A stretch of DNA of 64,000 nucleotides, taken from NCBI GenBank assembly GCA_028872955.1, contig JAGWNX010000007.1, forward strand, positions 1 to 64,000, given 5' to 3'. The translations under genes and the position numbers were made by a program. Below the pieces are notes generated by a model, which did no database searches, was not told the DNA's origin, and saw nothing but the letters and a program-made list of their open reading frames with translations. Each line of letters opens with the position of its first letter. Within the stretch, counting starts at the first letter, position 1. Shown here piece by piece: positions 710-64,000 of the stretch. The stretch comes from Acidobacteriota bacterium. GTDB taxonomy: Bacteria; Acidobacteriota; Terriglobia; Terriglobales; Acidobacteriaceae.

Positions 710-2659
710 ATGGGGAAGCTGAGCCGTACCAACCCAATGCGCGCGCTGCCCGTGCGCATGCCGGCAGTGCTCTCGCTGCTGTGTGCCACGCTGGTGCTGT
801 GCGTGGCGCGCCAGATGACGGCGCAGAGTGCGCCAGCGCCGACCCTGCTCCATCACCCGGCGGCGCTGCTCTTTGACGCGGCGGGCAATCTCTACGTGGC
901 AGAGAGTGCTGCGCATCGGGTGCGGCGGTTTGATCCCACAGGCAACGTCACCACGATCGCGGGTAACGGCACGCAGGGCGTTGCTGGCGATGGCGGTGCG
1001 GCCACCGCCGCCGAACTGGATACTCCGCAGGGGCTGGCGCTGGACCCTGCAGGCTCCACGCTGTACATCGCCGACACGCACAACCAGCGCATCCGCGCGC
1101 TCAACTTGAGCACCGGAATCATGACGACGGTGGCAGGCAACGGCAGCCCCGGCTTCTCTGGCGATGGGGGCCCGGCCACGGCGGCAAGCCTTGCTGCTCC
1201 GGTTGCGCTGGCGATCTCTGCCGGGGGCAAGCTGGCCGTGGCTGATAGCGGCAACTCCAGAGTTCGTGAGATTGATCTGGCCGCCGGCACCATCCTGACC
1301 GTGGCGGGCAGTGGGACGCAGGGCTACTCCGGCGATGGCGGACAGGCAACTGCGGCCGCGCTCGACACTCCCACCAGCCTGGCCTACGACGCTGCGGGCA
1401 ACCTCTACCTGGCAGACACGCATAACCAGCGCATCCGCCGCGTCGACACGAAGGGTGTCATCACCACGGTTGCGGGCGCAGGTGCGCCGGGCTTTGCAGG
1501 CGATGGAGGCGCGGCCCTGGCAGCCAGCCTGGCCGGGCCGACAGGCATCAGTGTCGACTCCGGGGGCAACCTCTACTTTGCCGACGCAGGCAACCAGCGT
1601 ATCCGCAGAGTGGATGCGACCACAGGCGCGGTCACCACTGTCGTGGGCGAAGGTACGCAGGGCTACGCAGGCGATGGCGGCCCCGCCACGGCAGCCATGC
1701 TGGATACGCCGCGTGCCACCGCGTTCTCTCCTGCAGCGCTGCTCACTCTGGCCGACGCCGCCAACCAGCGCATCCGCCAGCGCACGGCAACCGCAACGCT
1801 GGTCGCCTTCGGGACTGCTTCGTCCACGTCCGGTGGGAGCCCAGGGCCAGTGGCCACCACGCTCACCTTGTCGGTCTCGCCGCAGTCTGCCGGTGTGGGC
1901 GTGCCGGTCACGCTGACAGCGCAGCTTGCGGCTGCCGGCGGAGCGACTCCCTCCGGGAGCGTCACCTTTCTGGATGCGCAGGTGCCCTTTGCTTCCGCCA
2001 CACTGGACGGTACAGGTCGCGCGACGCTGACCACCACGGCCCTGGCCGCAGGCACGCACACGCTCACGGCCTTCTACGCCGGCAGTGCTGGTTTTGCGGC
2101 GTCCACGGCAGCAGCCGTCTCGCTCACCGTGACGGCAGCCGGTACCAACACGCCAGACTTCAGCCTGGCAGTCACCAGTACCAGCAACCAGACGACCGCA
2201 CCCGGCGTTGCGACCAGCTTCAGCTTCACCGTGCAGGCCTCGCCCGCGCTGACCGGCCCCATTACGCTGGCCGTCTCTGGCCTGCCGACCGGCACCACGG
2301 CGTCGTTCTCGCCAGCGTATGTTCCCCCAGGAGGGGCGGGCACCAGCGTCACCTTGACCCTGACTCCGCCAGCCGCGCTGGCCGGGTTGTCGGTAGATCG
2401 CGCACCTATCGTGCTGGCCCTGCTTGCACCGCTGCTGATCGTCCGGCGTCGATTCAGGCTCCCCGCAGTCATGCTGCTGTGCTGTGTCCTGCTCGGCTGT
2501 GGTGATCGCATTCGAACGGCAGGCACAACCGCAGCGCCGCTGCAGGTCTATCCGCTCACTATCACGGCGACAACCACCGCGCCCTCTGGCGCGACGCTGC
2601 AACACACCCTGGTGGTGACGCTCAACATCCAGCCCGTGACCGCTACGGCCAGCTTTTAG
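710..2659 (+). CDS. NHL-repeat beta-propeller surface protein with Ig-like domains and membrane-hairpin C-terminus
   Basis: Predicted exported protein of 649 aa. Residues 1-45 form an N-terminal signal region with a hydrophobic core (AVLSLLCATLVLCVA) ending at AQSA. Residues 45-370 hold at least five NHL-type repeats of about 55 aa, each carrying a GDGG.A.AA.L motif and ending in NQRIR, which should build a beta-propeller. Residues 380-480 look like a Big_3-type Ig domain (SGSVTFLD, FYAGSAGF). From about 484 to the end comes another Ig-like domain. It is interrupted by two short hydrophobic segments separated by RRRFR, the second ending in VLLGCGD, before the last strands (LQHTLVVTLNI). The start at 710 is the first ATG; an ATG at 737 is also possible and neither has a good SD. 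Function is unknown; binding or scaffolding at the cell surface is inferred. Confidence 0.85.
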   Translation: MGKLSRTNPMRALPVRMPAVLSLLCATLVLCVARQMTAQSAPAPTLLHHPAALLFDAAGNLYVAESAAHRVRRFDPTGNVTTIAGNGTQGVAGDGGAATAAELDTPQGLALDPAGSTLYIADTHNQRIRALNLSTGIMTTVAGNGSPGFSGDGGPATAASLAAPVALAISAGGKLAVADSGNSRVREIDLAAGTILTVAGSGTQGYSGDGGQATAAALDTPTSLAYDAAGNLYLADTHNQRIRRVDTKGVITTVAGAGAPGFAGDGGAALAASLAGPTGISVDSGGNLYFADAGNQRIRRVDATTGAVTTVVGEGTQGYAGDGGPATAAMLDTPRATAFSPAALLTLADAANQRIRQRTATATLVAFGTASSTSGGSPGPVATTLTLSVSPQSAGVGVPVTLTAQLAAAGGATPSGSVTFLDAQVPFASATLDGTGRATLTTTALAAGTHTLTAFYAGSAGFAASTAAAVSLTVTAAGTNTPDFSLAVTSTSNQTTAPGVATSFSFTVQASPALTGPITLAVSGLPTGTTASFSPAYVPPGGAGTSVTLTLTPPAALAGLSVDRAPIVLALLAPLLIVRRRFRLPAVMLLCCVLLGCGDRIRTAGTTAAPLQVYPLTITATTTAPSGATLQHTLVVTLNIQPVTATASF

Positions 2660-22158: not shown

Positions 22159-23022
22159 ATGTATCCCTACATCAATCTGGGTCCGGTGCACCTGGGCACC
22201 TTTGGTCTGCTGCTGTGGCTGGCCGCTGTCGCGGCGACGGTGGTGTTGCATCGGAACTTTACCCGGTACGGCGTGGCTGCCGATGCGTTGAACGTGGTCG
22301 CCGTGGTCGTTGTCTCCGGCGTCTTAGGCGCCAAGACCTGGCATGAGTTGCAGAGCATCCCGGAGCTGACCTTCTCGCTACGGCAGATCGTCGCGCCCGG
22401 CTGGAGCAGCCCGCTCAGCGTGCTGGGGCGGTTTCTGCGCTGGTTTCAGGCCGGCTTTGCCTGGTATGGCGGCATGCTGGCCGGCATTCTGGCGCTGATG
22501 GTGCAGGGGCGGATGGCCCGCATGCACGGCGAGAAGCCAGAGCAGCCCGGGCCTCGGCTGGGCGCGCTGCGCATGCTTGACCTGGCGGCCCCGGCCGCAG
22601 CCATCGGCTATGGCGTAGGGCGAATCGGCTGCCTGACCAGCGGCGATGGCGACTACGGCATCAAGACGACGCTGCCCTGGGGAGTGCACATGCGTCCTGA
22701 CGCGCTGGTGCCCACGCCAGACCTGGTGCAGCCGACTCCGGTGTACGAGCTACTCTTCTCGCTGCTCGTCTTCTGGATTCTATGGCGCCTGAGCCGCTCG
22801 CCACGACACGTCGGCTGGTTGACAGGCCTGTACCTGGTGCTGAGCGGGATCGGCCGCTTTCTGGTCGAGTTTGTCCGCATCAATCCCCGCCTGTACTGGG
22901 GCATGAGCAACGCGCAGACAGCAGCACTCGGCAGCATTGTGGCTGGCGCCCTGGTGATGGCAGTAGCCAGCAACCGTGGCAGCCTGTGGAGCCCGCCAGT
23001 GGAGACCGGCCAGCCCGGCTAA
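22159..23022 (+). CDS. Lgt-like prolipoprotein diacylglyceryl transferase homologue, active-site variant
   Basis: Polytopic inner-membrane protein of 287 aa with about seven helices. The fold and several motifs match Lgt: start YPYINLGPVHLGTFGLLLW, GVGRIGCLTSGD, QPTPVYELLFSL (Lgt: HPSQLYE) and GIGRFLVEFVR with the conserved Arg. In E. coli Lgt, however, the essential His sits in SFHGGL; here the site reads AWYGGML. The Asn and Glu of GRLGNFINGELWG are also replaced (GRIGCLTSGDGDYG). It may be a variant Lgt or an enzyme with another lipid or acceptor substrate. The track's 26 extra N-terminal residues are dropped, since the ATG at 22159 has a good SD. It is divergent from hpt. Confidence 0.8.
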   Translation: MYPYINLGPVHLGTFGLLLWLAAVAATVVLHRNFTRYGVAADALNVVAVVVVSGVLGAKTWHELQSIPELTFSLRQIVAPGWSSPLSVLGRFLRWFQAGFAWYGGMLAGILALMVQGRMARMHGEKPEQPGPRLGALRMLDLAAPAAAIGYGVGRIGCLTSGDGDYGIKTTLPWGVHMRPDALVPTPDLVQPTPVYELLFSLLVFWILWRLSRSPRHVGWLTGLYLVLSGIGRFLVEFVRINPRLYWGMSNAQTAALGSIVAGALVMAVASNRGSLWSPPVETGQPG

Positions 23023-30911: not shown

Positions 30912-31403
30912 TCAGGCCTCGCGTTGCGGACGAAAGATCTCAAGAAACAGCAACGCCGCGCCTATGCAGATGCAGGAGTCGGCGATGTTGAAGTCTGGCC
31001 AGTGATAGTGAACGATGTGAACTTCAAGGAAGTCGATGACGTGGTGAAAGCGGATGCGGTCGTACAGGTTGCCGATGGCTCCGCCCAGGATGAGCGCGAA
31101 TGCGACCGAACCCATGGAGAAGGTGCGCCCTGTGCGCCACAACAGCACCAGGACCAACGCCACGGCCAGCAGAGAGAAGGCCACCAGACCGTTGCGAACC
31201 GCAAGTGGCGACATATCCTCAAACAGCGAGAACGCCGCGCCGGTGTTGAGCACGTGCGTAATGCGAAAGACGTGCGGGATGATGGTGATGGGCTCAGCCG
31301 GGTCAACGTGCTTGACGATCCAGAGCTTGCTCAGGCGATCCAATACCACGGCCAGCACGGCCAGCAACAACAGGTAGGGGCGTGCGTCGCGACGCGTCGT
31401 CAT
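30912..31403 (-). CDS. lspA: Lipoprotein signal peptidase (signal peptidase II)
   Basis: Inner-membrane aspartic peptidase of 163 aa that cleaves prolipoproteins before the lipidated Cys. There are four helices; catalytic boxes are VLNTGAAFSLF, GGAIGNLYDRIR (first Asp) and FNIADSCICIG (second Asp). The helix-one motif VVLDRLSKLW is also typical. The track's 41-residue extension overlaps ileS. The ATG at 31403 shares one base with the ileS stop (TGATG), so translation is coupled, as in many ileS-lspA operons. Confidence 0.96.
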   Translation of the reverse strand: MTTRRDARPYLLLLAVLAVVLDRLSKLWIVKHVDPAEPITIIPHVFRITHVLNTGAAFSLFEDMSPLAVRNGLVAFSLLAVALVLVLLWRTGRTFSMGSVAFALILGGAIGNLYDRIRFHHVIDFLEVHIVHYHWPDFNIADSCICIGAALLFLEIFRPQREA

Positions 31404-61525: not shown

Positions 61526-64000
61526 TTACTGCACCGTCAGGTTCAGGGTGACGGACTGCGTGATCTGCACGCCGGACGTGGAGCTGGCCGTCACCTGGTA
61601 CTGGTAGGTGCCCGGCGGCGTCACCCGGATGCTTGCGTCTCCGCCGGAGCCGCACCCTGTGACACCCGCCAGCACGATGGCAGCAATGACCGCGAGCAGG
61701 CGCGTGACCAGCGCACGCCGGCTTCGCACCCAGGGCAACAGGAATAATCCTGCCAGCGCAGGCAGCACCTGCAACCCACGGCTAGGCAGCCAGTGGCCGG
61801 GAGTCGCTGGTGGTGCAGACTGCAGCGCCCCCGTGGTGAGGCTAATGCTGGTGATGGTGTTGATGGTCGCCACGGCACTCTGCGCCGCGCCTGCAAGCGT
61901 GATGCTGGACGGCAGCAGGGAGCACGTCGCGTACTGTCCGGGCTGGATAGGGCTGCAGTTGAGCACCACCGTGCCGGAGAATCCATGGATCGGAGTCAAC
62001 GTCAAGGCATAGCTGGCCGGCTTGCCCGCAGCTACGGTCGCCGCCGCCGTGCTGCCCGGCGTGGAGCCAGCCGTGCCCACGGTGAGGGTGAAGGAGCCAG
62101 GCGCAACGCCGCTTCCACTGAGTGGCACAACGTCGGGCGAGGTGGAGTCCGAGCTGGTCACCGTCAGCGCCGCCGAGCGCGGACCGGTGGTCGAGGGCGT
62201 AAAGCTCAGCGTGAGCGTGCAGCTGGCACCGGCACCCAGCGATGTCGAGGCACACGGCGAGGTGATGGCAAAGTCCCCGGCCGGCAGAACCGGACTCAAC
62301 CCGGTGACAGGGCCGTTGCCGGTGTTGGTCAGCGTCAGGGTCAGCTTCGCCGAGGAGCCCACCAGAATGGAGCCAAAGTCCAGCGCGGAGGGCGCGAGCT
62401 GCAGGTGCGAGGCCGCGCCTACGCCGGTTAGCTGCGCCGTCAGCGGCAGCGTCGTAGCGTCCGAGACGATGGCAACACTGCCCGTGCGCGTACCCGTCTG
62501 CGTCGGCGTAAAGGTTACGGTTACGCTGCAGCTGGTGCTGGCCGCCAGCGCCGTGCCCAGGCAGCTGGAGGTGGCGGCGTAGTCGCCCGTCGCGGTGATG
62601 GAGCTGAAGTTGACTGGAGTCGCCCCGGTGTTGGTTACCTGCAGGGTCTGGCTGGCCGTACTACCCAGCAATACGGTGCCAAAGTTGAGCGACGCAGGTG
62701 CCAGGGCCAGGCTGGAGGGATTGGCTGAGCCTATCAGTGAGACGAACTCGAGCGCAGTGCTGGCGTCGGACGAGATCTCAATAGCTCCCAGCCGGGTTCC
62801 GCTCCCCTGGGGTGCAAACGCCGCGATGAGGTTGCAGCTGGCGCCTGGAATCAGGGCAGAGCAACTGCTGGTGACGTTGAAGTCAGGCGTGCTCTGCACG
62901 TTCAGAATATGGAGAGTCGCCGTGCCGGTGTTGGCCAGCGTTACCGTCTGCGGGGCAGAGATGTTGCCGACCAGCGTCGGGGGAAAGGTAAGCGAGCTTT
63001 GCGACGCGGTAAAGGCCACCAGCGGCGCAGTATTCGAGGGTGCATTCACCGCGACAGGTCCTGCCGATCCCGCCAGATCCAGAAACTGCGGGCTACTGAG
63101 GGCGTCGCTCTCCACGACCAGGGTTCCACTATCGGTAGTAGCCAGGGGTGAGGTGGTTCCGGTTGCGACCTGATTGAGCGGCGTGTACTGCACCGTCACG
63201 GTACAGCTTTGCCCGGTGGCGAGCGGCTGGCCGCAGGTCGAGGTCGCCAGGAACGGCCACTCCGAGGTGACCCGCCGCACCGTAACAGGTGCCGCGGCAT
63301 GGTTGGTCAGGGTCACGGTCTGACTGGCAGACTGCCCACTGGCAACCTGGCCGAAGTTCACCACGCCACCCGGTGCAATCGTGCCCGTCAAGGCCAGCGC
63401 GTTGGCCCCGATCCCGTAGCCCTGAAAGTAGCCAAGAGCAGCGACGCTGGCAGAGCCGTCCGTGGGGTAGCCCTGGGCAAAGAGCGTCCCGGTGATGGTG
63501 GCGTTGGTGAGCGGAACAAAGCTGACGGAGAAGGTGCAACTCGCGTTTGGCGCCAGGCCCGCGCAACCCGGCCCGGTCAGCGCAAACTGCCGGGGCAGGC
63601 TGAGCGTGACGTAGAGGGCCTTGGAGGTCAGATTATTGAGCGTGAACAGGCGCGTGATGCCGACAGTCGAGGTAGGGTTGGGGCCATAGTCCGCCGTGTC
63701 TGGCACCAGTTGCAGGCCTGCGTCCTGGGTGGTGTAGGCACCGCTCAGCGGCACTGGATAGGTGCTGGTGACCAGGTTGCCCGCCAGGTTTGCCGTAACC
63801 GGCACCGTTAGGACGTCGCTTACCAGCGCACTGCCTGGCGTAAAGTTCACCGTCAGCGTGCAGGTGCCGGCGGGTGCCAGCGCAGAGCAACCGGAGGAGA
63901 CCGTGAAGCTGGCACTGGTCACCGCAGGCGTGCCCACCTGCAGCGTGGCGTTGCTGGTGTTCGTCAGGGTAATCGTCTGCTGCACGGAGGTGCTGCCGGG
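61526..64000 (-). CDS. Large ASH/choice-of-anchor-D repeat surface protein with membrane-hairpin C-terminus, 5' end outside the window
   Basis: About 825 residues are visible and the start lies beyond 64000. It carries at least six repeats of about 90-100 residues (LNFGTVLLGSTASQTLQVTN, LDFGSILVGSSAKLTLTLTN, LTFPPTLVGNISAPQTVTL). These are ASH/HYDIN-like Ig domains, each with a Cys pair (SSC...SC) before a FTP end that may be disulfide-bonded. The C-terminal domain (FTLTVGTAGST, HGFSGTVVLNCSPIQPG, AVATINTI) is split by two hydrophobic segments around VRSRR. The second ends in LAGVTGCGSGG, and the last strands (PPGTYQYQVTASSTSG, SVTLNLTVQ) follow. No adhesion function is shown. It lies 5 nt from the convergent riboflavin gene. 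Confidence 0.85.
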   Translation of the reverse strand, partial: PGSTSVQQTITLTNTSNATLQVGTPAVTSASFTVSSGCSALAPAGTCTLTVNFTPGSALVSDVLTVPVTANLAGNLVTSTYPVPLSGAYTTQDAGLQLVPDTADYGPNPTSTVGITRLFTLNNLTSKALYVTLSLPRQFALTGPGCAGLAPNASCTFSVSFVPLTNATITGTLFAQGYPTDGSASVAALGYFQGYGIGANALALTGTIAPGGVVNFGQVASGQSASQTVTLTNHAAAPVTVRRVTSEWPFLATSTCGQPLATGQSCTVTVQYTPLNQVATGTTSPLATTDSGTLVVESDALSSPQFLDLAGSAGPVAVNAPSNTAPLVAFTASQSSLTFPPTLVGNISAPQTVTLANTGTATLHILNVQSTPDFNVTSSCSALIPGASCNLIAAFAPQGSGTRLGAIEISSDASTALEFVSLIGSANPSSLALAPASLNFGTVLLGSTASQTLQVTNTGATPVNFSSITATGDYAATSSCLGTALAASTSCSVTVTFTPTQTGTRTGSVAIVSDATTLPLTAQLTGVGAASHLQLAPSALDFGSILVGSSAKLTLTLTNTGNGPVTGLSPVLPAGDFAITSPCASTSLGAGASCTLTLSFTPSTTGPRSAALTVTSSDSTSPDVVPLSGSGVAPGSFTLTVGTAGSTPGSTAAATVAAGKPASYALTLTPIHGFSGTVVLNCSPIQPGQYATCSLLPSSITLAGAAQSAVATINTITSISLTTGALQSAPPATPGHWLPSRGLQVLPALAGLFLLPWVRSRRALVTRLLAVIAAIVLAGVTGCGSGGDASIRVTPPGTYQYQVTASSTSGVQITQSVTLNLTVQ

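Follow-up and report, generated by a model that had tools for sequence, protein, structure and literature searches.

A C-terminal module with a split Ig-like domain and a lipoprotein-like internal signal on diverse exported proteins of Acidobacteriaceae

Two repeat proteins with a common C-terminal tail

The window, by which we mean the whole stretch of 64,000 nucleotides that was analysed, carries two genes for repeat proteins that end in the same series of elements, one with NHL repeats and one with ASH repeats; genes for homologues of Lgt and LspA lie between them. The features are as follows, with residue numbers counted within the modelled ASH tail.

710..2659, plus strand: NHL-repeat protein with the same module series
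2147..2656, plus strand: module of the NHL protein, Cys codon at 2498-2500
22171..22962, plus strand: Lgt homologue, the higher-scoring one of the genome's two (context)
30933..31364, minus strand: LspA, the sole match in the genome (context)
61526..64000, minus strand: ASH-repeat protein with the module, stop codon at 61526-61528
61847..62092, minus strand: N-terminal half of the terminal Ig-like domain, with AlphaFold2 strands within residues 10-91 and block pLDDT mostly 91-96
61775..61846, minus strand: variable linker preceding the hairpin, modelled for much of its length at pLDDT below 50, with pairwise identity averaging 18% across 12 relatives
61727..61774, minus strand: predicted helix TM1 (LQVLPALAGLFLLPWV), expected to run from outside to inside (median hydropathy 2.03 in 77 tails, partly built in by their selection)
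61715..61726, minus strand: RSRR positive loop, expected to be cytoplasmic (mean of 4.62 K/R, partly built in by selection, and 0.04 D/E, free of it, in the loops of 77 tails)
61655..61711, minus strand: predicted helix TM2, similar to a lipoprotein signal peptide's hydrophobic core in its hydropathy and lipobox figures and in the cross-matches of model NF058595
61652..61666, minus strand: lipobox GVTGC, with the invariant Cys codon at 61652-61654
61529..61621, minus strand: C-terminal half of the Ig-like domain (its last two strands) and protein end, with AlphaFold2 strands at residues 170-180 and 187-196 and pLDDT 81-97

The C-terminal 824 residues of the ASH protein fall inside the window; its open frame of 2033 codons extends beyond the window end, where the N-terminal part contains SBBP beta-propeller repeats.

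The original prediction held that these two proteins share one homologous C-terminal module, and staked this on the two tails falling into a single family with a conserved Cys. Both hold. When the ASH family was set against the NHL tail, aligned with three tails like it, profile-profile comparison by hhalign gave a match at a probability of 97.8% (E 7e-13) over 160 columns, with Cys aligned on Cys, and the Cys is present in 77/77 profile-match rows that cover the module fully, rows that were picked without selection on Cys. The AlphaFold2 model of the NHL tail, at moderate confidence (pLDDT 67.6), has its elements in the same order as in the ASH tail. The N-terminal parts of the two proteins show no significant similarity by BLASTP (E 0.096), as had been claimed; this stands for sequence and perhaps not for fold class, since the SBBP propeller of the ASH protein belongs to a fold class like that of NHL repeats. 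Likewise, the figure of about 40 residues past the Cys fits the ASH protein (41) and the median of 77 tails (42), and fails for the NHL protein, which has 52; the range is 34-55. With a two-sequence ASH alignment as query, the named records that yielded ASH-type tails came from Granulicella, Edaphobacter and other Acidobacteriaceae. The ASH tail matched nothing in a plasmid collection.

An Ig-like domain interrupted by a membrane hairpin

Judged from profile matches and structure prediction, the module is an Ig-like domain into which TM1, an Arg-rich loop and TM2 are inserted ahead of the final two strands. When its profile was run against proteins outside the family, uninterrupted Ig domains were matched as two abutting halves. 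Weaker matches elsewhere in the phylum were examined in 12 genomes, and most of the ones inspected proved to be uninterrupted Ig domains. A model from which the hairpin had been excised matches such domains end to end, with a best score of 75.5 bits against 48.5 for the best half; these domains had been chosen by their first half, so the independent part of this result is the match to the second. There is also a weak He_PIG match to the C-terminal half of the ASH domain, at profile positions 67-95 of 96.

The predicted structure of the ASH tail agrees, in that confident strands flank a low-confidence hairpin on both sides. Foldseek aligned this tail over 172-211 columns with single Ig-type domains that are 112-142 residues long, with TM-scores by target of 0.55-0.62, although none reaches E 0.001; the targets that span the gap are single ASH/PapD-like domains. 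Taken together, the secondary structure, the model confidence and the length of the Foldseek alignments suggest that strands pair across the hairpin. The split Ig domain proposed in the original prediction is thus borne out by the abutting half-matches, the full-length matches of the excised model and the strands on either side of the hairpin. Conservation varies along the tail: mean identity across 12 ASH relatives is 61% and 74% in the two Ig halves, 58% in the lipobox, 33% in the hairpin and 18% in the linker.

Distribution across proteins and genomes

NCBIfam already models this module as NF058595.1 invert_tail, "lipo-invert putative C-terminal anchoring domain". The model spans the hairpin and the final strands but takes in only a small part of the first half of the Ig domain, and its name makes no mention of a split Ig domain; in the literature searched we found no publication on lipo-invert or on an internal lipoprotein signal of this kind. 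The ASH tail scores 48.8 bits against a cut-off of 37, covering profile positions 4-113 of 113 (44.8 bits for the whole fragment), and six further tails from the same genome exceed the cut-off, while the C1 tail reaches 26.6 bits. The long proteins on C207 and C100 are absent from the matches when scanned whole and pass as tails alone, an omission that probably reflects HMMER's filters. Neither the NHL protein nor its tail matches NF058595 up to E 10, despite the homology seen with hhalign. The module itself was therefore already catalogued; the NHL tail, homologous by profile comparison, lies beyond that model, and NF058595 could be widened to take it in.

A profile search of the window's own genome found nine tails on 7 contigs, attached to at least six kinds of N-terminal architecture. 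These tails, from which the profile itself was built, score 1e-39 to 1e-58, and the next match is at 0.06. The architectures are NHL; ASH with SBBP; FG-GAP with Ig repeats; chitobiase-C/Fn3-associated repeats; ASH with a weak Sortilin-like stretch; kumamolisin-type propeptide (two); and plain Ig repeats (two). In other genomes it is also attached to LTD plus an endonuclease/phosphatase domain, to TIG, and to DUF7948 combined with SBBP. The module is thus portable across unrelated exported proteins, as the original prediction had it. At one locus (G000:C91:36662-40472), two adjoining Pro-kumamolisin-domain proteins both carry it.

The nine-tail profile and NF058595 alike find the module in 47/47 sampled genomes of the window's family, the latter with 2 to at least 11 matches per genome at E 1e-7. 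NF058595 scores above its cut-off in 0/14 control genomes from outside the phylum. Resemblance by chance between Ig-rich, low-complexity C-termini has in its favour the repetitive composition of these tails and the fact that HMMER leaves certain members out in full-length scans of long proteins. We nevertheless regard chance as excluded, because the nine tails are separated so widely from the next match and because every family genome has the module; the hhalign match and the 77/77 Cys point the same way.

Elsewhere in the phylum the module is sporadic by NF058595, found in three genomes of genus g66 (G208, G264, G382) and in G391 (one contig). These are single copies, three of the four on contigs of at least 0.49 Mb, and horizontal transfer is possible. 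Single weak matches outside the family occur in G064, G129, G153, G161 and G232; contamination is a possible source, as all of these except G064 are listed at 3% contamination. Separately, an orphan short ORF (L082:3013-3177) contains TM2, the lipobox Cys and the last strands (TPPGTYQY...), with no first Ig half found upstream within the locus. Upstream of it lie a gene resembling FtsH and an ORF that resembles a transposase, of IS630 type as judged by eye; the orphan may be a fragment that the element cut off or else a small lipoprotein in its own right.

The candidate internal lipoprotein signal

At the sequence level, TM2 with its Cys looks like an ordinary lipoprotein signal: there is a lipobox with an invariant Cys and a small residue at -1, and the genome encodes Lgt and LspA. 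NF058595 itself also gives weak matches to the N-terminal signals of lipoproteins in this genome (L009, L010, L011, L013 and L020). For the lipobox and charge figures we used 77 tails picked by a rule that demanded a Cys after a hydrophobic stretch and K/R before it. The Cys count of this set is no evidence, since the rule required the Cys, and the rule also accounts in part for the hydropathy and the loop charge; the residues at -1, -2, -3 and +2 and the low loop D/E are free of selection. The -1 residue is small in 77/77 (G64 A11 S2), and in 74/77 of these rule-picked tails the loop is more positive than either flank.

We propose, with somewhat better than even confidence, that the module is a portable C-terminal device for membrane attachment built around an internal lipoprotein signal. 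An N-terminal signal sequence would export the protein; the frames that we read by eye have signal-like N-termini. The last Ig-like domain would be broken by the hairpin, with TM1 running inward, the Arg-rich loop in the cytoplasm and TM2 running outward. TM2, lipobox and Cys would then act as the signal, and addition of diacylglycerol to the Cys by Lgt is the likeliest reading. LspA would probably cut before the Cys, releasing a lipidated peptide of ~35-56 residues; by strand complementation, the two strands of this peptide would make the large chain's Ig domain whole. Such cleavage with docking is plausible, and the more specific outcome, a two-chain lipoprotein cut within its terminal Ig domain and carrying its lipid near the C-terminal end on the docked two-strand peptide, has a little less than an even chance of being right. 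In the literature searched we found no documented case of internal LspA cleavage behind another TM helix.

The evidence bears differently on three other readings. If Lgt modified the Cys and the hairpin stayed intact, two helices and a lipid would hold the protein; TM1 could indeed block LspA by preceding TM2, and the predicted structure has the Ig domain formed although the hairpin is present. Yet G, A or S at -1 in every rule-picked tail is what LspA substrates would be expected to show, even if Lgt recognition alone might select likewise, and we consider this uncut form a minority prospect, at roughly one chance in five. A plain two-helix anchor, with the Cys serving for a disulfide or a metal, for example, would fit the positive-inside hairpin, but the Cys in its lipobox context is invariant while the surrounding helices drift, which makes this very improbable. 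The third concerns where the protein ends up. After an LspA cut, the large chain would still be held in the inner membrane by TM1, and outer-membrane or surface display would therefore need a second cut. A dedicated protease or sortase-like enzyme recognising the hairpin, as in MYXO-CTERM and PEP-CTERM systems, could supply one near TM1 and so account for export past the inner membrane, and TM1 with its Arg cluster is like CTERM tails. No CTERM model scores above its cut-off, however, and the linker before TM1 lacks a conserved motif in the ASH relatives; we hold such an enzyme to be unlikely.

The original prediction also looked for linkage to lgt and lspA paralogues, and this part was not supported. 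LspA is single-copy in 17/17 sampled family genomes, the nine tails lie on 7 contigs, and the lgt and lspA genes of the window show no sign of functional linkage with the tail genes. They sit between the two, ~20-30 kb from the nearest tail and ~20-40 kb from the two tail-bearing genes. The genome has two Lgt homologues (L143 and L144, on G000:C149 and G000:C134), the second weaker at 64 bits, and 15/17 sampled family genomes have at least two Lgt matches. G022 and G106 have one Lgt each and still carry tails, so a paralogue is not required; an lgt or lspA dedicated to the module was rejected on these grounds.

These data suggest that the module is a means of envelope attachment for a large set of repeat-rich exported proteins in this family of Acidobacteria, among them propellers, kumamolisin-type peptidases, and ASH and Ig arrays. 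For a named and apparently unpublished family, a lipoprotein signal set within an Ig domain is a specific mechanism that can be put to the test; the module's roles in anchoring and processing are putative.

Compared with known systems, the module is most like bacterial lipoproteins of the Lgt/LspA pathway, with their positive n-region, hydrophobic stretch, lipobox, Cys and Gly-rich mature start. Its signal is internal, however: the complete exported protein and a further TM helix come before it, and the chain continues for just 34-55 residues beyond the Cys. MYXO-CTERM, the tail of myxosortase substrates, likewise sits at the C-terminus and has an invariant Cys, presumed to be lipidated; its order is Cys, one TM helix and an Arg-rich C-terminal end (PMC11980579). 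In our module this order is reversed: the Cys comes after two helices and is followed by Ig strands. MYXO-CTERM models match neither the ASH and NHL proteins nor their tails at E up to 10, and the PEP-CTERM and GlyGly-CTERM tail models of NCBIfam likewise find nothing to E 10 (a ScyF match of the NHL protein falls on its propeller, not the tail), so the distinction from all three that was drawn at the outset is upheld. In pilus subunits, donor-strand complementation completes an incomplete Ig-like fold with strands from elsewhere. The module would be completed in a similar way, except that its strands belong to the same translated chain.
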